A stretch of 13,994 nucleotides of DNA. It comes from JAUXIQ01 sp030620925 [NCBI: Nitrospinota bacterium] (lineage in GTDB: Bacteria; JAUXIQ01). The stretch lies in assembly GCA_030620925.1 (NCBI GenBank), contig JAUXIQ010000014.1, positions 1 through 13,994 of the forward strand. The letters run 5' to 3'. A program made the position numbers and the translations under genes. Under the pieces are notes generated by a model that saw only the letters and a list, made by a program, of their open reading frames with translations, was not told where the DNA came from and searched no databases. Shown here one piece after another: positions 1,565 to 13,065 of the stretch (the first letter of the stretch is position 1; the number at the start of each line of letters is the position of its first letter).

Positions 1565-2929
1565 TCATTCTATTTGGACCCAGGATAACAGCTTGCCTGT
1601 TAGCGGGCCGTATTTGGGAGGGTTGTTATTGTCATAAACGATGGAGATATTTCCGGCCAAGGGGCTGAGTGAAAACCCGTCAGTGGCTATTATAGGGCCG
1701 TAAAGGGTCTTATTGCCACCACCGCCGAAATCGAAATAGGTAGCTGTGTAGACACCGAGCTGATTGGTCGGGCTGCCGATTTGGATGTTCCCCCTGAAAT
1801 AGATTTCCGCGTTTGCTACCGCTGCCACACCCTCGAGGTCTATATGGCCCTGTATATTGGTATTCGTATAGAACTCTATGCTGCCAGAAGCCAGAACCAC
1901 CCCATTCCAGGGTTGATCCACACTTACCGTTACATTCCCATCAATGTAAACTACCCCCTTCAGAGGTTGGATGGCGACACTGCCGGGGCAGCCTCCACTA
2001 TACTCTATATTGACCGTAGTCGCTGCATCAGGCGGCGCCCTGTAGAGGAACAGGCATTCTGTTCCGTCCATGCTTTCATACAGGTCCCCTGCGCCTCCGG
2101 GCGGTCTGCCGGCGACGGTCATGATATTGAGTATATCTATTACCAGATTGCTGGCGATCGACCTGTAATATTCCGCGCTGACAGGAGGGATATCCTCCAC
2201 CTGCGCGTTGCCACTGCCGGTGGTTCCCCCGCCGACCAGGTTGACTTCTCCTGTAAAGGTCTCGGAAGCGGTGACTGCCCCCTCGGAGATATCCGCATTA
2301 CCGAGACTTGTAAAGTTGCTGTTGGTGTGGATGGACGGCTGAGAACCTGTGACTGAGATGCTGCCTTGCAGGGTAATGTCGCCGCCGGAGAGAATGGCGT
2401 ACTTCGGCTCGTAGGACACCTTTTTATAGAGGCCCTTAATGGTGGATATAGAGCGCGGGTTTCCGGCACCGTCTTCTATCCACCCTCTGGAAATCAGTAT
2501 TACCCCCAGGTCTTCATCAAAATCGTTGCCCACGATAGTGTCGTTGGACGGGCCGGTAACGTATCCCGCGTCATCGTTATCGGCGAGCCAGACCTTGAAT
2601 TTTCTCTTGTCGCTTACCGTGATGGTGTTAATCCACCTGTGTATGTCGTAGCTGGTGGAGTTAATTGTCATTGTCTCCACGGGGTAGGCGGCAGTAAGCT
2701 CTTCGTCTTGAAAACCGTCGTTTTCGTCTAATTTCAACAGTGCCGCACCCTCGTTTAGACCCGCATCGGCCAGGTGGAGCGATACACGCTTCAACCTGCT
2801 GTTGGTAATCTGCTGTTGCTTTTCAACAGACATATTGAGACTCAAAATCCCTATAGTCAACAGCGGACCCAATATGAACATGACAAGCAACATCGATATT
2901 CCTTGTTCTTTGGATTCATACTGTTTCAT
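1565..2929 (-). CDS. PilX-like pilus assembly / type IV pilin-like secretion protein
   Basis: The 454-residue product begins with a short polar leader, one hydrophobic segment (about residues 10-32) and then ADAGLNEG at 54-61, matching the A-E-A-G-L-N-E motif of PilX N-terminal proteins. This is known for minor or accessory proteins of type IV pilus-type machines, anchored in the inner membrane by the N-terminal helix. The rest is long, rich in Gly, Ser, Thr and Asn, and has repeated short beta-like strands (GDITLQGSISVTGS, NGVVLASGSIEF, AEIYFRGNIQIG), suggesting a surface beta-helix or beta-rich domain. The start is supported by AAGGA 7 bases upstream. Upstream lie a c-di-GMP riboswitch, terminator and strong promoter on the same strand, so expression is probably set by c-di-GMP. 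No other pilus gene is in the window. Function in adhesion or surface attachment is inferred. Confidence 0.82.
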   Translation of the reverse strand: MKQYESKEQGISMLLVMFILGPLLTIGILSLNMSVEKQQQITNSRLKRVSLHLADAGLNEGAALLKLDENDGFQDEELTAAYPVETMTINSTSYDIHRWINTITVSDKRKFKVWLADNDDAGYVTGPSNDTIVGNDFDEDLGVILISRGWIEDGAGNPRSISTIKGLYKKVSYEPKYAILSGGDITLQGSISVTGSQPSIHTNSNFTSLGNADISEGAVTASETFTGEVNLVGGGTTGSGNAQVEDIPPVSAEYYRSIASNLVIDILNIMTVAGRPPGGAGDLYESMDGTECLFLYRAPPDAATTVNIEYSGGCPGSVAIQPLKGVVYIDGNVTVSVDQPWNGVVLASGSIEFYTNTNIQGHIDLEGVAAVANAEIYFRGNIQIGSPTNQLGVYTATYFDFGGGGNKTLYGPIIATDGFSLSPLAGNISIVYDNNNPPKYGPLTGKLLSWVQIE

Positions 2930-3128
2930 GGGACTGTCCTTCCCCCTTTTTTAAACTCGATTATTGAGGCTCGTTCGTTTCAAAAGCCTCAGTTTTTTCC
3001 CCTTTGCTGCCTTGGGGAAACCCGATGTTCCTTTTCCTTTAAGGATATGAGCAGTATTTCCGCTGAACGCCTATTTCAGCGGTTCTTATCGCCATCTGAT
3101 GGATATATGGATATTGAGAATAAACCAT
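2930..3128 (-). promoter_or_regulatory. Structured 5' leader of the PilX-like gene
   Basis: About 200 bases separate the riboswitch terminator from the start codon and contain no gene on the minus strand. They form four successive inverted repeats: CCGCTGAA/TTCAGCGG (3060-3082, 8 bp, perfect), a TCCTT/AAGGA stem (3029-3045), TTTCCCC/GGGGAAA (2996-3020) and TGAGGCT/AGCCTCA (2965-2991). The last is followed on the plus strand by GTTTTTT, so it could also stop antisense transcription from the plus strand. I do not recognise a known RNA family here. The stems are seen; any regulatory role is inference. Confidence 0.4.
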
Positions 3129-3165
3129 AAAAAAAAGCTCGCTTCCACAAAAGGGAAACGAGCTT
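3129..3165 (-). terminator. Intrinsic terminator of the riboswitch expression platform
   Basis: Read on the minus strand, AAGCTCGTTTCC and GGAAGCGAGCTT pair over 12 positions (one G-U) around a 7-base loop, followed by a run of 8 T. It lies about 15 bases after the c-di-GMP aptamer and about 200 bases before the PilX-like start, with no gene in between, so it is placed as a conditional terminator within the leader. Confidence 0.88.
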
Positions 3166-3179
3166 CCAGTTCCACCTTT

Positions 3180-3268
3180 CGTTTAGCAGCCCCGCTACCC
3201 TATCCACCTTTGGTAGACTTAGACCGGAAGCTTTGCGCCCCTGCCTTTCAGCAGGTTTGCCCTTCAAC
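3180..3268 (-). ncRNA. Class I cyclic di-GMP riboswitch (GEMM-I)
   Basis: Read on the minus strand the segment reproduces the hallmark blocks of the Vibrio Vc2-type c-di-GMP-I aptamer in order. These are GGGCAAACC; a 5-bp stem CCTGC/GCAGG capped by a GAAA-containing loop (3240-3255); GGCGCAAAGC; TTCCGGTCTAAG; a second stem TCTACC/GGTGGA with an AAA loop (3203-3217); and GGTAGCGGGG. The conserved core blocks are identical or nearly so to those remembered for Vc2. The base equivalent to Vc2 G20 appears to be G (AGGGC), which favours c-di-GMP over 3',3'-cGAMP; this is alignment by eye. A terminator follows immediately and a PilX-like gene is next on the same strand. This is consistent with known control of motility, pilus and surface genes by this class. 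Whether ligand turns the gene on or off is not resolved; an AAACG just 3' of the aptamer could pair with CGTTT in the terminator arm. Confidence 0.93.
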
Positions 3269-3326
3269 GTCTCAAGCTGATATGCAGTTACTATCTCTTG
3301 CATATCAGTTATTTCTTATTTATTAC

Positions 3327-3355
3327 ACTATAGTGTGCCGGTTGGAAATTGTCAA
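3327..3355 (-). promoter_or_regulatory. Promoter of the riboswitch / PilX-like transcript
   Basis: On the minus strand TTGACA (3355-3350) is separated by exactly 17 bases from TATAGT (3332-3327). Transcription would start near 3320, about 50 bases ahead of the aptamer core. The -10 overlaps a perfect 12-base palindrome, ACACTATAGTGT (3325-3336), a possible operator. Confidence 0.78.
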
Positions 3356-3363
3356 GAAAATAA

Positions 3364-3391
3364 TTGACACATAACCACGTATAGTTATGAT
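3364..3391 (+). promoter_or_regulatory. Divergent promoter facing the five-gene operon
   Basis: TTGACA (3364-3369), a 16-base spacer and TATGAT (3386-3391) make a near-consensus plus-strand promoter. Its -35 box lies only 8 bases from the -35 of the opposite promoter, so the two are back to back. The transcript would have a leader of about 350 bases before the first operon gene. Confidence 0.65.
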
Positions 3392-3397
3392 TTAATA

Positions 3398-3750
3398 GGG
3401 AATAATTCTCTTTTGAGCGGCGGTGATTATACCTCAAAAATTGCTACTTATAAGCCTCATATCGCATTTAATTAGAGCGCGGCCAGCGGGATGAAGAAAA
3501 TGGTTCAGGTAGTCGCGTCACTCTATTTTAGCCCGGGATATGAGTATCCCGGTGAGGGGGCCGTTTGGAGGTGGTTTTACCCTGTCGTGATAGATTTGGG
3601 CCTGCGAACTACCCCCAGAATTAGTTTGGTGGTTCGGCTGCCGTCACACGCCGGTCACGGACGGCAAAACGGATTGAATACAGATATAGCTTGTGCTATT
3701 CTTCATCCACGATCTTGGAGTGTTTTATCGTTTAGGTTAGGGGGTGGATA
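3398..3750 (+). promoter_or_regulatory. Long leader ahead of the operon, with hairpins and a second promoter candidate
   Basis: This 350-base stretch has no gene I can support. It contains a perfect 8-bp hairpin with a TGAG loop (3533-3552), a GCCGTC/GACGGC repeat (3640-3645 and 3660-3665) and a longer AACTACC/GGTGGTT pairing around 3607-3634. A second promoter candidate, TTGAAT-17-TATTCT, lies at 3674-3702 and would give a leader of only about 42 bases. An 86-codon open frame (3491-3751) ends on the first base of the operon start codon but has no ribosome binding site or recognisable sequence. No known riboswitch family is recognised. Confidence 0.4.
3674..3702 (+). promoter_or_regulatory. 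Proximal promoter candidate of the operon
   Basis: TTGAAT at 3674-3679, a 17-base spacer and TATTCT at 3697-3702 match four of six consensus bases each. The start codon of the HMG-CoA-lyase-like gene is about 42 bases past the expected transcription start. Confidence 0.45.
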
Positions 3751-4659
3751 ATGAGTTTACAGCTACCTCAGTCGGTTACAGTGGTTGAACAGGGCCCCAG
3801 GGACGGTTTTCAGAACGAGAAGGAAGTAATACCCACCGAGGAGAAGGTGAGGATAATAGACGCTCTGTCAGATACGGGGCTCAAAGCAATGCAGGTGACC
3901 TCCTTCGTGCATCCCAAGTGGGTGCCCCAGCTCGGAGACGCCGAGGAAGTTTTAAAACGCATGAAACGGGCTGAAGGGATTAAATATTCCGCCCTGGTAC
4001 TCAATGAAAAAGGGCTGCAGCGAGCCATAGAAAGTGAAATCGGGACTATCGATGTGGGCGTTTCGGCCAGCGAGACCCACAGCCGAAAAAACGTGAACAT
4101 GACCGTCCAAGAAGGATTGGACCGCATCCTGGGCGTAATAGAGGCCGGGAAGGAGGCGGGTCTGAGTGTCAGGGCGGGGGTGATGTGTTCTTTCGGCTGC
4201 GTATTTGAGGGTAACGTCCCCATGGAGAACGTCCTGCGCATCGCCTCATCGTTCCTGTCCGCGGGAGCGGAAGGAATCGGCCTGGCGGATACCACGGGCA
4301 TGGGGAATCCCGCCGATGTTTATGAGTTGTTTTCGAGGCTCATCGATATAGCGGACGGGGTGCCGGTATCGGCCCACTTCCATAACACCAGGGGTTCAGG
4401 TCTGGCCAACGTGCTGGCGGCGATGCAGGCGGGCTGCAACGTTTTTGACGGCGCTATCGGTGGATTGGGGGGGTGTCCCTTCGCTCCGGGTGCAACGGGC
4501 AACGTCGCCACCGCCGACCTGGTCAACATGTTCCATGAAATGGGTATAGAGACGGGAATCGACCTGGAGAAACTGGTTGAATGCGCCCGAATGGTGGAGT
4601 CCATTCTGGGCAAAGAGCTTCCGGGGCAGGTCTTGCGTGCGGGACCGGTGAAACATTGA
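3751..4659 (+). CDS. HMG-CoA lyase-like enzyme (HMGL/DRE-TIM family)
   Basis: The 302-residue TIM-barrel protein belongs to the family of hydroxymethylglutaryl-CoA lyases, which cleave 3-hydroxy-3-methylglutaryl-CoA to acetyl-CoA and acetoacetate using a divalent metal. Seen are EQGPRDGFQ at 13-21 (catalytic Arg17 and metal ligand Asp18), the metal-binding HFH at 209-211, and the signature GGLGGCPFAPGATGN with catalytic Cys242 and metal ligand Asn251. The Cys-Asn spacing equals that of the human enzyme (C266/N275), and the length is typical. The start follows a weak G-rich ribosome binding site (GGGGGTGG). It is first of five same-strand genes and is followed after 36 bases by a ThDP enzyme, so the true substrate may be another 3-hydroxy-acyl-CoA. 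A related aldolase-type role is possible, but all key residues of a lyase are present. Confidence 0.9.
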   Translation: MSLQLPQSVTVVEQGPRDGFQNEKEVIPTEEKVRIIDALSDTGLKAMQVTSFVHPKWVPQLGDAEEVLKRMKRAEGIKYSALVLNEKGLQRAIESEIGTIDVGVSASETHSRKNVNMTVQEGLDRILGVIEAGKEAGLSVRAGVMCSFGCVFEGNVPMENVLRIASSFLSAGAEGIGLADTTGMGNPADVYELFSRLIDIADGVPVSAHFHNTRGSGLANVLAAMQAGCNVFDGAIGGLGGCPFAPGATGNVATADLVNMFHEMGIETGIDLEKLVECARMVESILGKELPGQVLRAGPVKH

Positions 4660-4695
4660 TGGCCTTAGAGGGAAATATTAACATGGGGGGATGTC

Positions 4696-6384
4696 ATGGC
4701 TCAGGTTACCGGCGCTGAGGCACTCATAAATACCCTTAAAGCTCAAGGTGTGCAGCACATCTTTGGCTTACCCGGCACTACGGTGGTGCCGCTGCTGGAT
4801 GCGTTGGCGGGCAGGGAGGACGTCAAATATATTCTGAGCCTGCATGAGAACAGTGTGATGTCCATGGCCGAGGGCTACGCCCGGGCCACGGGCGGCCCGG
4901 CTTTCGTGAGCATCCACATGATACCCGGCACGGCAAACGCCCTGGGCTGCATGTACAGCGCCCAGCGCGACGGGGTGCCGCTGGTAGTCCTCGCCACCGA
5001 CCAGGATTCCCGCATCAGCGGCCGCGACACCTTCACCGAGACGTCGGACATGGTGGAGATAAACAACCAGTTCACCAAGTGGAGCTGGTGTGTGCCCCGG
5101 GCCGAGCGCATCCCCGAGGCTTTGAACAGGGCCTTCAAGACGGCCGCCGCCCAGCCCCCCGGCCCCGTTTACCTGACCATGCCCAAGAACCTGTTGGCAG
5201 AGAAGATAGAATACGGCAATACAGCCCTGGACGGGCAGAGGTTGAGCACACGGCTGGAGCCGGACCCCGAACAGATACATAATGCGGCTCGATATCTGTT
5301 ATCCGCAGAGCGGCCCATATCCGTGGCCGGATACGGTGTGATGACCGACGGCGCGCTGGAGGAGATGGTGGAGCTGGCCGAACTCCTGGCCATGCCCGTA
5401 TACATGGAGCCCTTTCACCCCTACCTGACCTTTCCACACAGGCACGAGCTCTTCTTCGGCCCTTACCGGCCGAACGCACCCGTCCAGGAGTCGGCAGACC
5501 TGATGTTCGGCGTGGGAGGAAGATTGTTCGTGGAGTTCGATTATTCGCCGACGCCGATGATTCCTGAGGGATTAAGGCTCATACACATGAACGTGGACCC
5601 CTGGGAAGTGGGCAAGATATTTCCCACCGAGGTGGGAATAGTGGCCGACGCCAAAAGCGGGCTGGCGGCGTTGATCGATGGAGTGAAAGAGCTGATGGAC
5701 GCCGGCGCCAGGGAGAGGATTCAGTTGCGCTCCGAACACCTCAGGGAACGCAAGAAGGAGAAGGACGCCTCCCTGGCCCAGGAGCTTAAAAATGGCTGGG
5801 ACGATGCTCCCCTCAAGCAGTGGCGTATGACCGCCGACCTGGTGCAGGAGATGGGCGAGGAGACGGTATTGGTCAACGAGAGCGTTACCGCCTCGGGCTA
5901 CTTCTTTGATTATCCCCGCCAGGAGCTCTATTTCGCCAACTCCTGCGGTTTCCTGGGCTGGGGCCTGGGCGCGGCGGTGGGCGTTAAGCTGGCCATGCCG
6001 GAGCGGAAAGTGGTGGCCTGCGTGGGGGACGGCAGTTTCGTTCTGGGCATGCAGTCGCTCTGGTCTTCGATGAGGTACAACCTCCCCATCACCGTGGTGG
6101 TCGTTAACAACGGCACTTATGTTGCAGTTAAGGGAGCTCTTAACCTGCACGGGGGAAAGGCGGCCCAGCAACCCGATACGCTGGGCCTGGGGAGCGACCT
6201 GGGGAGCCCTGACGTCGATTATGCAAAAATAGCCGAGGGCTTCGGCGGAGTGGGGGAGCGCGTGGAGAAACCTGAGCAACTGCGTCCGGCAATACGGCGG
6301 GCTCTGGACGCCGACAGGCTGGCGGTGGTGGATGTATTGGTGGACCCCAGGGAGACCGGCTACGGGCGGCCGCGTCTGCCGTAA
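4696..6384 (+). CDS. Benzoylformate decarboxylase-like ThDP-dependent enzyme
   Basis: At 562 residues it has the usual three domains: N-terminal pyrimidine-binding (about 1-170), central (about 190-330) and C-terminal pyrophosphate-binding (about 370-540). Glu51 in LHENSV is the expected activator of the cofactor. GDGS at 444-447 and NN at 471-472 form the ThDP/metal motif. Several stretches follow benzoylformate decarboxylase closely, from memory: FGLPG, IHM-PGTANALG (His74 at the place of active-site His70), VNESVTAS and NNGTY. The second active-site histidine of that enzyme (His281) seems to be replaced, since the aligned stretch reads LFVEFDY. It therefore probably decarboxylates or ligates a 2-oxo acid, but substrate and product are open; acetolactate-synthase-like or 2-hydroxyacyl-CoA lyase roles cannot be excluded. 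A GGGGGG run 5 bases before the ATG serves as ribosome binding site. The gap to the next gene is short. Confidence 0.88.
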   Translation: MAQVTGAEALINTLKAQGVQHIFGLPGTTVVPLLDALAGREDVKYILSLHENSVMSMAEGYARATGGPAFVSIHMIPGTANALGCMYSAQRDGVPLVVLATDQDSRISGRDTFTETSDMVEINNQFTKWSWCVPRAERIPEALNRAFKTAAAQPPGPVYLTMPKNLLAEKIEYGNTALDGQRLSTRLEPDPEQIHNAARYLLSAERPISVAGYGVMTDGALEEMVELAELLAMPVYMEPFHPYLTFPHRHELFFGPYRPNAPVQESADLMFGVGGRLFVEFDYSPTPMIPEGLRLIHMNVDPWEVGKIFPTEVGIVADAKSGLAALIDGVKELMDAGARERIQLRSEHLRERKKEKDASLAQELKNGWDDAPLKQWRMTADLVQEMGEETVLVNESVTASGYFFDYPRQELYFANSCGFLGWGLGAAVGVKLAMPERKVVACVGDGSFVLGMQSLWSSMRYNLPITVVVVNNGTYVAVKGALNLHGGKAAQQPDTLGLGSDLGSPDVDYAKIAEGFGGVGERVEKPEQLRPAIRRALDADRLAVVDVLVDPRETGYGRPRLP

Positions 6385-6417
6385 CCAGGATCGGGAACTG
6401 AGATGGGAGGGCAGGGC

Positions 6418-7245
6418 ATGTCATCTAAGGAGATGGATAAGCTGACCGCTCGGGAGGTGAGGGGAATAGTACGTGAGGGGAAATGGGTGCGGCCCACGGC
6501 GGGCCTGTCGAGAGGGTTCATCCAGGCCAACCTGGTGATCCTGCCCGCCCGTGAGGCGGAGGACTTTTACCGATTCTGCAAGGCGAACCCCAAACCCTGT
6601 CCGCTGCTGGAGATGTTTGAGGCCGGCTGTCCGGAACCCAGGCGTGTGGCCCCCGGCGCCGATATTCGCACCGACCTGCCGCTGTACCGCATATTCAAAG
6701 ACGGGGAGATGGTCGGCGAAGAAGAGGATGTTACTTCTTTCTGGCGGGATGACATGGTCTCCTTTCTGCTGGGATGCAGCTACACCTTCGAGCACCGTCT
6801 TGCCGAGGCGGGCATTCCCTTGCGCCACTGGGAACAGGGGTGCAACGTGGCCGCTTTCGTCACGGAAGTCCAGTGCGAGCCGGTGGGCATCTTCCGGGGA
6901 CCAATGGTGGTCAGCATGCGCCCGGTGCCGGAGGAACAGGTGGAGCTGGCGGTGCAGGTCACCGAGCCTCACCATCACAGCCACGGCGCGCCCGTGCATA
7001 TTGGACGGCCGGAGGAAATAGGCATAAAAGACATTTCCCGGCCCGAATACGGGGACGCCGTCGAGATAAGGGAAGGGGAGGTGCCGATATTCTGGGCCTG
7101 CGGGGTGACCCCCCAGGAGGTGCTCCTGAACGCCAAACCTCCACTGGCCCTCACTCACTCCCCCGGGTATATGTTCATTACCGATTTGAAGGACGACGCC
7201 CCTGTGAAACTTTTCGAAGCGCCGGAAGCATTTTTGAGGGATTGA
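6418..7245 (+). CDS. UPF0317 / DUF1445 family hydro-lyase-like protein (YcsI-like)
   Basis: The protein shows the family's long conserved blocks: QANLVILP, FCKANPKPCPLLEMFEAG, ADIRTDLPLYR, SFLLGCSYTFEHRL, GPMVVSMRP, HGAPVHIG, FWACGVTPQ and LTHSPGYMFITD. Members are annotated as putative hydro-lyases and are related to mammalian D-glutamate cyclase, which dehydrates D-glutamate to 5-oxo-D-proline; the bacterial substrates are mostly unknown. I chose the ATG at 6418 (275 residues) over the one at 6403 because GGAGGG lies 6 bases ahead of it; the longer form has no proper ribosome binding site. It sits 33 bases after the ThDP enzyme and before the MaoC pair. Its job may therefore be adding or removing water from a hydroxy or oxo acid in the same pathway, which is inference. 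Length is usual for the family. Confidence 0.88.
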   Translation: MSSKEMDKLTAREVRGIVREGKWVRPTAGLSRGFIQANLVILPAREAEDFYRFCKANPKPCPLLEMFEAGCPEPRRVAPGADIRTDLPLYRIFKDGEMVGEEEDVTSFWRDDMVSFLLGCSYTFEHRLAEAGIPLRHWEQGCNVAAFVTEVQCEPVGIFRGPMVVSMRPVPEEQVELAVQVTEPHHHSHGAPVHIGRPEEIGIKDISRPEYGDAVEIREGEVPIFWACGVTPQEVLLNAKPPLALTHSPGYMFITDLKDDAPVKLFEAPEAFLRD

Positions 7246-7331
7246 CAGCGGCCCCTGCTGATGGTAAGTAATTGTTGATTTGAGTGAGACACTTACATTT
7301 TAGCCGAGATTTTATAGTGGAGGGATTTTCT

Positions 7332-7796
7332 ATGGTTGATAAGAACCTTCTGGGAAAGGAGTTCCCCGGCCCTACGTGGGATATTGAGAAGGGGAAGATC
7401 GGGGAGTTCGCCAAAGCGATCGAGGACCCCAACCCTATTTTCTATGATGAAGCGGCGGCGAAAGCTGTCGGGCTTGAAGGGGTTCCCGCGCCGCTGACCT
7501 TTTTGGTGACGGAGATGTTTCATTTCGACGAAAGTATCTCCAGGCCGGATTACAAGGTGGATATGAACCGCGTCCTCGACGGGGGGACGGAGTTCGAATA
7601 CATCAAGCCGGTGCTTGCAGGAGACACCATCACCAGCAGCACGAAGGTGGTGGACATCTATGAAAAGACGGGCAAACGCGGGGGGACGATGACTTTCGTG
7701 GTGGCCGAGACCACCTATACCAACCAGAAAGGCGAGGCCTGCGTGAAGTCGCGAGGCACCCTGATTGAGACCAGCCAGGCACCCACATCGGGCTGA
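7332..7796 (+). CDS. MaoC-like N-terminal-type dehydratase subunit (HadA-like)
   Basis: The 154-residue protein resembles the FAS1-like N-terminal half of MaoC dehydratases (GKEFPGPTWDIEKGKIGEFA, EDPNPIFYDEAAAK, PAPLTFLV). This hot-dog-fold unit lacks the catalytic Asp-x-Asn-x-x-His site and normally pairs with a catalytic partner. The start at 7332 is preferred to an upstream in-frame ATG at 7284 because GGAGGG lies 7 bases before it. The partner gene follows 17 bases later. By analogy with mycobacterial HadA/HadB, the two should form a heterodimeric (3R)-hydroxyacyl-CoA (or -ACP) dehydratase/enoyl hydratase. An 86-base gap separates it from the UPF0317 gene. Substrate-binding role is inferred from the family. 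Confidence 0.85.
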   Translation: MVDKNLLGKEFPGPTWDIEKGKIGEFAKAIEDPNPIFYDEAAAKAVGLEGVPAPLTFLVTEMFHFDESISRPDYKVDMNRVLDGGTEFEYIKPVLAGDTITSSTKVVDIYEKTGKRGGTMTFVVAETTYTNQKGEACVKSRGTLIETSQAPTSG

Positions 7797-7813
7797 GAGA
7801 GGAGATACTGCAG

Positions 7814-8242
7814 ATGGCAGAGCTTTATTACGAGGATATAAATGAAGGTGACGAGGCCCAACCTCTGGCGATGGGTCCCTGCACCAGGACTCAGGTAGTA
7901 AAATACGCCGGGGCTTCGGGTGATTTTAATCCCTTGCATACGGACGAACTGTTCGCCATTCGGGCCGGTTTCGACCGGATATTCGCCATGGGCAAGATGG
8001 GTGCCGGCATGTGCACCCGCATGGTATGCGATTGGCTGGGCTTCCAGAACATCAAGAAGTACGGTTTCAGGTTCACCAGCCAGCTATGGCCGAATGACCT
8101 CATAACCTATAAAGGTAAAGTCGTCCGTAAGTATGAGGAAGGCGGAGAAAACCTGGTGGAGTGCGACATATTTGGTGAAAATCAAAACGGCGCCAGAACC
8201 TTGATGGGCAGCGTATTGGCCAGCTTGCCGTCCAAGAAGTGA
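7814..8242 (+). CDS. MaoC-like (R)-specific enoyl-CoA hydratase/dehydratase, catalytic subunit (HadB-like)
   Basis: This 142-residue hot-dog-fold protein carries the hydratase-2 motif ASGDFNPLHTD at 34-44, with the catalytic Asp37 and His42, followed by GFDRIFAMGKMGAG. Such enzymes add or remove water at the 2,3 position of (R)-3-hydroxyacyl-CoA or -ACP. The size is that of a single hot-dog domain, so it needs a partner, and the preceding gene supplies a matching N-terminal-type subunit. GAGGAG lies 9 bases before the ATG. It is the last operon gene and is followed 29 bases later by a strong terminator. It could serve either a breakdown pathway or a lipid-synthesis pathway; the lyase and decarboxylase next door favour breakdown. 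Confidence 0.9.
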   Translation: MAELYYEDINEGDEAQPLAMGPCTRTQVVKYAGASGDFNPLHTDELFAIRAGFDRIFAMGKMGAGMCTRMVCDWLGFQNIKKYGFRFTSQLWPNDLITYKGKVVRKYEEGGENLVECDIFGENQNGARTLMGSVLASLPSKK

Positions 8243-8271
8243 AGACGTTACCGGATAAGTAAAAGCAATGG

Positions 8272-8305
8272 TGGGCCGGGGCTGATACCCCGGCCCATCT
8301 TTTTT
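8272..8305 (+). terminator. Intrinsic terminator closing the five-gene operon
   Basis: A perfect 10-bp stem, TGGGCCGGGG (8272-8281) with CCCCGGCCCA (8288-8297), has a 6-base loop CTGATA and is followed by TCTTTTTT. This is a textbook rho-independent terminator just after the MaoC gene. Confidence 0.93.
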
Positions 8306-8401
8306 AAGAAGCGGTGAGTTGTTATTAACGGCCGAAAATCTTTTAAGAGCTGATCCCCCGATAACGCGGGAGCTGATGCTTGGTGAAGAGGGAGGAATGA
8401 G

Positions 8402-9196
8402 ATGGATTTAGGAATTAAAGACAGGGTGGCTATAGTGGCCGCATCCAGCAAGGGTTTGGGCAAGGCATCGGCCATGGCGCTGGCCGGGGAAGGTGTGAAG
8501 CTCACCCTTTGCGCCCGGGGCGAAGAGGCCCTGAACGCCGCCGCCGATGAAATAAGCGGGAAAACCGGTGCAGAAGTTTTTAGCATGGCGGTGGACGTTA
8601 CCAATAAAGACGATATAGACGCCCTGGTAAAAGCCACCGTGGATAAATTCGGTAAGGTGGACATCCTGGTGACCAATGCCGGCGGGCCGCCGCCGGTGGT
8701 CTCTTTCCTCGACGTGACGGACGAGGGCTGGCGGGAAGGCATAGACCTCAACCTCATGAGCACCATAAACATGTGCAGGGCCGTCGTCCCCCACATGAAG
8801 GCTCAGAAGTGGGGCCGCATCGTTAACATTATGTCCATCTCGGTGAAGCAGCCGCTGGACGCGCTGCTCCTCTCCAACGTTTCACGGACGGCTGTGGTGG
8901 GTTTCTCCAAGACCATCTCCAACGAGCTGGCCGGGGACAATATAACCGTGAATACCGTCTGCCCGGGAGCCATCTTGACTGATAGAGTGAAGAATATGAC
9001 TCAGGCCAGGGCAAAGAACGAAGGCAAGACGCAGGAAGAGATTCTGGCCGCCTACACTGACATCATCCCCATGGGACGCATAGGCCGGCCGGAGGAGCTG
9101 GGTGGCATGGTGGCCTTTCTGGCCTCTGAGCATGCCAGCTATATTACCGGCACGGTAATACAGATAGACGGCGGGTTCGTTAAAGGTTATAACTGA
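8402..9196 (+). CDS. Atypical short-chain dehydrogenase/reductase lacking the catalytic Tyr/Lys
   Basis: The 264-residue protein is a clear SDR by size and by TNAGGPP at 91-97, CPGAILTDR and the C-terminal QIDGGF. The glycine motif is altered (AASSKGLG at 13-20 rather than TGxxxGIG). In the active site Ser145 is present, but the position 13 residues later, normally Tyr, is Ser158 and the Lys position is Arg162 (SNVSR, in place of YxxxK). Relatives with the same SN-x-x-R pattern are widespread and usually annotated as 3-oxoacyl-ACP reductase-like, so this is a subfamily trait rather than a mutation. Activity as a normal reductase is doubtful. GGAGG lies about 6 bases before the ATG. It has a leader of about 100 bases after the previous terminator and shares its first residues (MDLG-K-R) with the minus-strand SDR ending at 9807. 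Confidence 0.88.
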   Translation: MDLGIKDRVAIVAASSKGLGKASAMALAGEGVKLTLCARGEEALNAAADEISGKTGAEVFSMAVDVTNKDDIDALVKATVDKFGKVDILVTNAGGPPPVVSFLDVTDEGWREGIDLNLMSTINMCRAVVPHMKAQKWGRIVNIMSISVKQPLDALLLSNVSRTAVVGFSKTISNELAGDNITVNTVCPGAILTDRVKNMTQARAKNEGKTQEEILAAYTDIIPMGRIGRPEELGGMVAFLASEHASYITGTVIQIDGGFVKGYN

Positions 9197-12970: not shown

Positions 12971-13065
12971 TGGCGGAAACGCGTGGGAGTCGAACCCACC
13001 GCAGGGGTCTTAGCCCTGCCACTGGATTTGAAGTCCAGGAGGGACACCGGTCCCCATGCGCTTCC
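12971..13065 (-). tRNA. selC: tRNA-Sec (anticodon TCA)
   Basis: The 95-base minus-strand gene folds as a selenocysteine tRNA. It has an 8-bp acceptor stem GGAAGCGC/GCGTTTCC (one G-U), a 6-bp D stem GGGGAC/GTCCCT with the short CGGT loop, and an anticodon arm CTGGA-CTTCAAA-TCCAG with UCA. A long variable arm GCAGGG/CCCTGC follows, then a T arm GTGGG-TTCGACT-CCCAC, with discriminator G and an encoded CCA. The 8+5 bp acceptor/T arrangement, long variable arm and anticodon together are specific to bacterial selC, and the total length equals the E. coli gene. It inserts selenocysteine at UGA with SelA, SelB and SelD, none of which is in the window. It implies the organism makes at least one selenoprotein. 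Confidence 0.97.

Follow-up and report, generated by a model that had tools for sequence, protein, structure and literature searches.

We identified a class I c-di-GMP riboswitch that we predict, with a probability of about 72%, to switch off, by transcription termination, a lone PilX-type pilin-like gene in a 13,994-nt stretch of Nitrospinota DNA (hereafter the window). The minus strand carries, in order, a promoter-like site, a c-di-GMP-I aptamer, an intrinsic terminator and, ~200 nt further on, the gene. This layout is confirmed, and the riboswitch is real, complete and ordinary in kind. An earlier sequence-only reading had proposed a complete transcriptional riboswitch at this site, a proposal now backed by computation through the aptamer score, the terminator and the folding of transcript prefixes. 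It had left the direction of control open; our fold models predict OFF with ligand.

The aptamer occupies 3180..3271 of the minus strand. Searching with cmsearch and RF01051, a check that the sequence-only reading had put forward, returned a match at 3271-3182 of 74.2 bits (E 2.3e-13), well over the gathering cut-off of 35. The alignment runs over all 87 model positions (1-87 of 87), which bears out the class I c-di-GMP aptamer of that reading, and P1 pairs 3269-3266 with 3180-3183. A permissive-threshold family scan of 2900-3480 yielded only three other matches, all far below their families' cut-offs. Across the genome (89.5% complete, 2.5 Mb in 445 contigs), this is the single RF01051 match.

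Two kinds of evidence bear on the ligand. The selectivity position (RF01051 model position 11, corresponding to G20 of Vc2) is a G at 3261. Among the 75 aptamers that we compared, this base is G in 71 and A in 4; 14 of the 75 were chosen by a pattern requiring G, and of the remaining 61 it is G in 57. The genome also holds four GGDEF matches, two of them near-identical to each other, and in all four domains an Asp stands 26 positions ahead of the third residue of the motif (GG[D/E]EF), counted by eye. Given a G at the selectivity position and four canonical-looking GGDEF domains, c-di-GMP rather than cGAMP is likely the ligand. A cGAMP-sensing (GEMM-Ib) riboswitch would have company in the cGAMP riboswitches described upstream of Geobacter pilus assembly genes in the available part of one paper (PMC6456294). 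However, the same portion of that paper assigns Ser or Thr at the corresponding position to cGAMP-making GGDEF enzymes, and the accessible text of another has the G20A change accompanying cGAMP binding (PMC6274999). With a G in the aptamer and four GGDEF domains that look canonical, we regard cGAMP sensing as highly improbable.

The expression elements surrounding the aptamer agree with those named by the sequence-only reading. A consensus scan placed a sigma-70-like promoter, TTGACA-17-TATAGT, at 3355-3327 (11/12 bases), the only promoter-like site on the minus strand in 2900-3760. That region contained two such sites against a shuffle mean of 1.5, so the promoter taken by itself could be a chance occurrence; the second lies on the plus strand at 3364-3391. 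Between the predicted transcript start and the aptamer, a 10-bp hairpin (CTGATATGCA/TGCATATCAG, 3277..3308, minus strand) recurred in each of the prefix structures shown for lengths of 60 nt and more. The intrinsic terminator (3129..3167, minus strand) consists of a 14-pair hairpin at 3167-3133, with a predicted energy of -19.8 to -20.8 kcal/mol, and an eight-T tract at 3136-3129. The scan gave three terminator-like sites, compared with a shuffle mean of 0.9; this one has the most pairs, and the other two are on the plus strand. The leader continues past the terminator for ~200 nt (2930..3128). We looked there for a second RNA element and rejected the idea, since Rfam gave no credible match and the predicted fold did not exceed that of shuffled sequences in stability (z about -1.05).

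Prefix folding yielded an antiterminator that excludes both the aptamer and the terminator. The switching strand ACUGGAAGCUCGUUUC (3155..3170, minus strand) doubles as antiterminator strand 2 and the left arm of the terminator. Its first partner, AGCUUCCGGU (3223..3232), is the 5' strand of P3 and forms 10 contiguous pairs, one of them G-U, with 3170-3161. A further strand, GAGACG (3268..3273), overlaps the 5' strand of P1 and pairs with CGUUUC (3160-3155) in prefix folds of 168-180 nt. In prefixes of 164-184 nt, the lowest-energy unliganded state had AGCUUCCGGU (3232-3223) paired with ACUGGAAGCU (3170-3161), lengthened from 168 nt by the GAGACG pairing to 10+6 bp in total. Relative to the native aptamer imposed as a constraint, this state was more stable by 11-17 kcal/mol, a gap that omits ligand and tertiary contacts. 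The energy model disfavours the aptamer already at 150 nt, before the linker is made (native aptamer -39.5 vs other fold -46.2). From 188 nt on the terminator is able to form, and forcing aptamer and terminator together gave a compatible fold. For the full leader without ligand, the terminator with a free aptamer region reached -69.8, the antiterminator -67.7 and the terminator with the native aptamer -62.2; with the first two so close and the third at that level without ligand, control would be kinetic.

The aptamer/linker duplex (-28.0 kcal/mol) was reached by 5 of 5,000 shuffles of the linker plus left arm and by 2 of 5,000 aptamer shuffles (2 of 1,000 in a first run). The uninterrupted 10-bp run alone was equalled by 237 of 2,000 shuffles, and aptamers of other loci with the same P3 sequence pair nearly as well with the window linker (for example L053, -27.5). 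Our searches found no leader orthologue, so the antiterminator lacks covariation support. In the cell, we infer ligand binding and termination to proceed as follows. At low c-di-GMP, 3232-3223 and 3273-3268 would pair with ACUGGAAGCUCGUUUC (3170-3155) in the growing RNA, disrupting the aptamer and tying up the left arm of the terminator, and the gene would be transcribed. With c-di-GMP bound, P1 and P3 would be locked and the left arm free, hairpin 3167-3133 would form and transcription would stop. We predict the OFF sign because the terminator follows the aptamer and because its left arm has alternative partners in the 5' strands of the P3 and P1 helices.

The opposite sign would result if the 3' strand of the aptamer (GGCUGCU) were the left arm of a longer terminator, with ligand preventing termination as in Geobacter pilM. 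A looser terminator finder did pick such a structure, a 56-nt hairpin of -21.0 kcal/mol with its left arm inside the aptamer, and our first automatic classing accordingly labelled the window ON. Long interrupted hairpins won in that classing, and we replaced it with a stricter definition, which was chosen after the looser definition's ON result had been seen. Under the strict scan, as in the forced fold, the terminator is downstream of the aptamer and compatible with it, in disagreement with the looser scan. The 56-nt hairpin has 4 contiguous pairs beside the U tract, beyond which its stem is broken up, whereas the compact stem sits directly before the eight U, begins ~14 nt beyond the end of the aptamer match and is compatible with a folded aptamer. 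We judge the compact stem adjoining the U tract to be the real terminator. Precedent leans the other way, since both studied pilus or adhesin cases are ON in the parts of the literature available to us, namely pilM (PMC9262584) and Bacillus thuringiensis cap, where ligand switches an adhesin gene on. Of the 34 terminator-bearing leaders in our comparison, 10 are likewise ON-type, the prepilin-gene leaders L019 and L024 among them. On balance, we consider an ON switch unlikely.

A different objection accepts the aptamer and terminator as real but holds that the switch is decayed or leaky, without useful control of the gene. It draws on the lack of any orthologue showing selection on the leader, on the single RF01051 copy in the genome and on a paralogous gene without an RF01051 match. 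Nevertheless, the aptamer scores strongly, and a promoter-like site, a terminator and a complementary switching strand accompany it; we find decay improbable. The OFF switch remains our preferred reading.

We compared the window with other RF01051 loci. An RF01051 match was present in 11 of 59 genomes in a sample of relatives (this genome included), the listed relatives sharing no more than domain with it, and in 49 of 118 genomes from the phylum of a Desulfobacterales MAG (locus L046), that MAG included. The 75 loci comprised the window, 29 from the relatives sample, 30 from the L046 phylum, 1 found with the PilX-profile loci and 14 selected by core pattern. By the strict automatic definition, 34 had a terminator and 41 had none. 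Of those 34, 24 were OFF-type, with the left arm downstream of the aptamer (window included), and 10 were ON-type, with the left arm inside it.

Six loci from deltaproteobacterial MAGs (L041, L046, L047, L048, L052 and L053) share the aptamer core pattern and a downstream OFF-type terminator with the window. They differ from the window in that CCCGCU in the left arm could pair with AGCGGG, the 3' strand of P3, and the best duplex lies at that strand in five of the six (the exception is L047). Among their downstream genes, judged by eye, are ones for HDOD, response-regulator and flagellar rod-type proteins. At these loci and at L049, whose weaker terminator was dropped by the strict rule, the duplex is mostly no stronger than in shuffles (19 to 690 of 1,000 reach it), so pairings of this kind are weak evidence in general. 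We dropped the idea that the antiterminator geometry of the window is unique, as the best pairing at L091 and L095 also falls on the P3 5' strand.

This survey brought up two further observations. A sigma-28-like promoter (TAAAGTTT-N11/12-GCCGATAA type) stands 53-68 nt upstream of the aptamer core in 6 of the 14 core-pattern loci (L041, L046, L047, L049, L052 and L053), five of which have an OFF-type terminator. The arrangement suggests that a flagellar sigma factor and c-di-GMP shut-off may act on one leader at those loci. Separately, 4 of 15 cores examined, all in MAGs, three named as Gammaproteobacteria and one as Pseudomonadota, have an ORF of 331-423 codons whose ATG falls within the aptamer's conserved UAUGA and has AGGGGA just upstream (L042 at 3523, L043 at 615, L050 at 1782 on the minus strand and L051 at 4183). 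In these four, the aptamer may double as the ribosome binding site.

The gene downstream of the riboswitch (1565..2929, minus strand) comprises 454 codons and encodes a protein with an N-terminal hydrophobic helix. Its ORF starts at 2929, ~200 nt past the T run, preceded by AAGGA; the gene stands alone, and the neighbouring acyl-CoA dehydrogenase gene is convergent. The sequence-only reading placed a PilX-like, surface-appendage gene 200 bases on. The position held, and profile matches and gene layout favour the assignment, but the resemblance to PilX is a distant one and no curated cut-off was reached. The protein exceeded no threshold in Pfam and NCBIfam scans, PilX_N (PF14341) included, and we therefore rejected a curated-family name for it. 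Run against the whole genome up to E 10, PF14341 matched only a T2SSK gene, below cut-off (E 0.127).

Relationship emerged instead from profile A1, built from the window protein and a paralogue 62% identical to it. Over the N-terminal segment, A1 matched proteins at L058 (E 3.4e-4), L063 (8.3e-9) and L064 (1.2e-5), which places the window protein among PilX-type proteins in the wide sense. PF14341 itself exceeded its cut-off at L058, L063, L064, L065 and L070 (seven proteins scanned). At E up to 0.001, A1 matched in 10 of 395 genomes of the L046 phylum and 13 of 386 across the domain (own included); a search via loci, with E up to 1 allowed, gave matches in 4 of 10 genomes, in one of them at 3.4e-4. 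The matches include PilX genes of minor-pilin operons, adjoining prepilin genes (L058, L064, L065, L068 and L070), tandem PilX genes (L063) and, by eye, GspK-like genes (L067 and L071). Some span the protein body (L105, L107 and L062), L062 also matching DUF7305 below cut-off. In an alignment of ten hand-picked proteins, identity to the window protein was 17-26%, the paralogue aside; L062 lacked the N-terminus, three columns were invariant and a C-terminal W stood in 9 of the 10 rows. At E up to 0.01, PilX_N matched four of the ten and DUF7305 two.

The window protein resembles PilX_N and DUF7305-type proteins in having an N-terminal hydrophobic segment, then an A[DE].G motif and a long body that can be aligned with theirs, at low identity. 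It differs in falling below every curated cut-off and in standing alone, outside a minor-pilin operon. A single-sequence structure model had a mean pLDDT of 34 and was confident only in part of the N-terminal helix; the only hits in a search of solved structures (E 0.085 and 0.37) were taken as chance. A short-peptide search for orthologues found none in genome contigs or viral contigs, and a search in the phylum of G057, which covered one genome, found nothing. From the profile evidence, we conclude that this is probably a divergent PilX-type prepilin-like protein, which would function in a type IV pilus or pseudopilus.

The paralogue (contig C416, G000:C416 604-1968, L056) has no RF01051 match. 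We discarded the idea of a leader common to the two genes, which gave no meaningful alignment. By eye, an extended -10-like element, TGGTATAAT, lies ~100 nt upstream of the paralogue's likely start, and a divergent gene nearby resembles formylglycine-generating-type proteins. The genome contains four T2SSE-family ATPase matches over cut-off and a T2SS pseudopilin cluster (T2SSK by Pfam), and no flagellin domain was found in it. The earlier interpretation is partly supported: the complete transcriptional riboswitch and, by profile, the pilin-like gene stood, and its description of the other genes as metabolic fits the window but not the genome, with its pseudopilin cluster and its four T2SSE-family and four GGDEF matches. 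Within the window, a plus-strand gene run at 3751-9196 diverges from the riboswitch and has its own promoter-like site at 3364-3391; encoding HMGL-like, thiamine-diphosphate, D-glutamate-cyclase-like, two MaoC-type-domain and SDR proteins, it may be one catabolic operon. A selenocysteine tRNA gene lies at 12975-13065 on the minus strand (RF01852, 78.3 bits; ARAGORN agrees), and the genome may accordingly decode UGA as Sec.

Riboswitches of this class beside pilus genes are already known. GEMM-I riboswitches ahead of Geobacter pilus assembly genes are in print (PMC6456294 and PMC9262584, as far as their available text goes), and the portions of the literature on PilX or minor pilins with riboswitches that were accessible held no case like this one. 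In our comparison, RF01051 leaders precede prepilin-type genes elsewhere too (L002, L019 and L024 (one genome), and L017), and in G151 and G077 RF01051 matches occur next to loci with PilX genes. The strict definition classes the L019 and L024 leaders as ON-type and those of L002 and L017 as OFF-type, and it finds no terminator at L064; the window is therefore not alone in having an OFF-type leader on a prepilin gene.

What is new is the predicted OFF sign on a pilin-like gene together with a paralogue outside the switch. A scheme in which c-di-GMP swaps pilus subunits would have high c-di-GMP silence the PilX-type protein while the riboswitch-free, 62% identical paralogue stays expressed, changing the makeup of the pilus or pseudopilus between two life styles; we think this quite unlikely. 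Against ON in the two studied pilus or adhesin cases, at least in the accessible accounts of them, only the predicted sign is unusual, and mildly so. If confirmed, it would mean that pilus-type genes can be controlled with either sign by this aptamer class; no new kind of system is opened. In the available part of PMC9262584, Clostridioides difficile Cd1 is, like the window, a class I transcriptional OFF switch whose terminator is compatible with the bound aptamer. Its antiterminator is described as using the 3' aptamer-stabilising strand, whereas that of the window would use the 5' strands of P3 and P1, and the downstream gene differs. Geobacter metallireducens pilM, described in the same text, likewise has a GEMM-I aptamer and a terminator ahead of a pilus gene, but it binds cGAMP, is ON and has a terminator and aptamer that are mutually exclusive.
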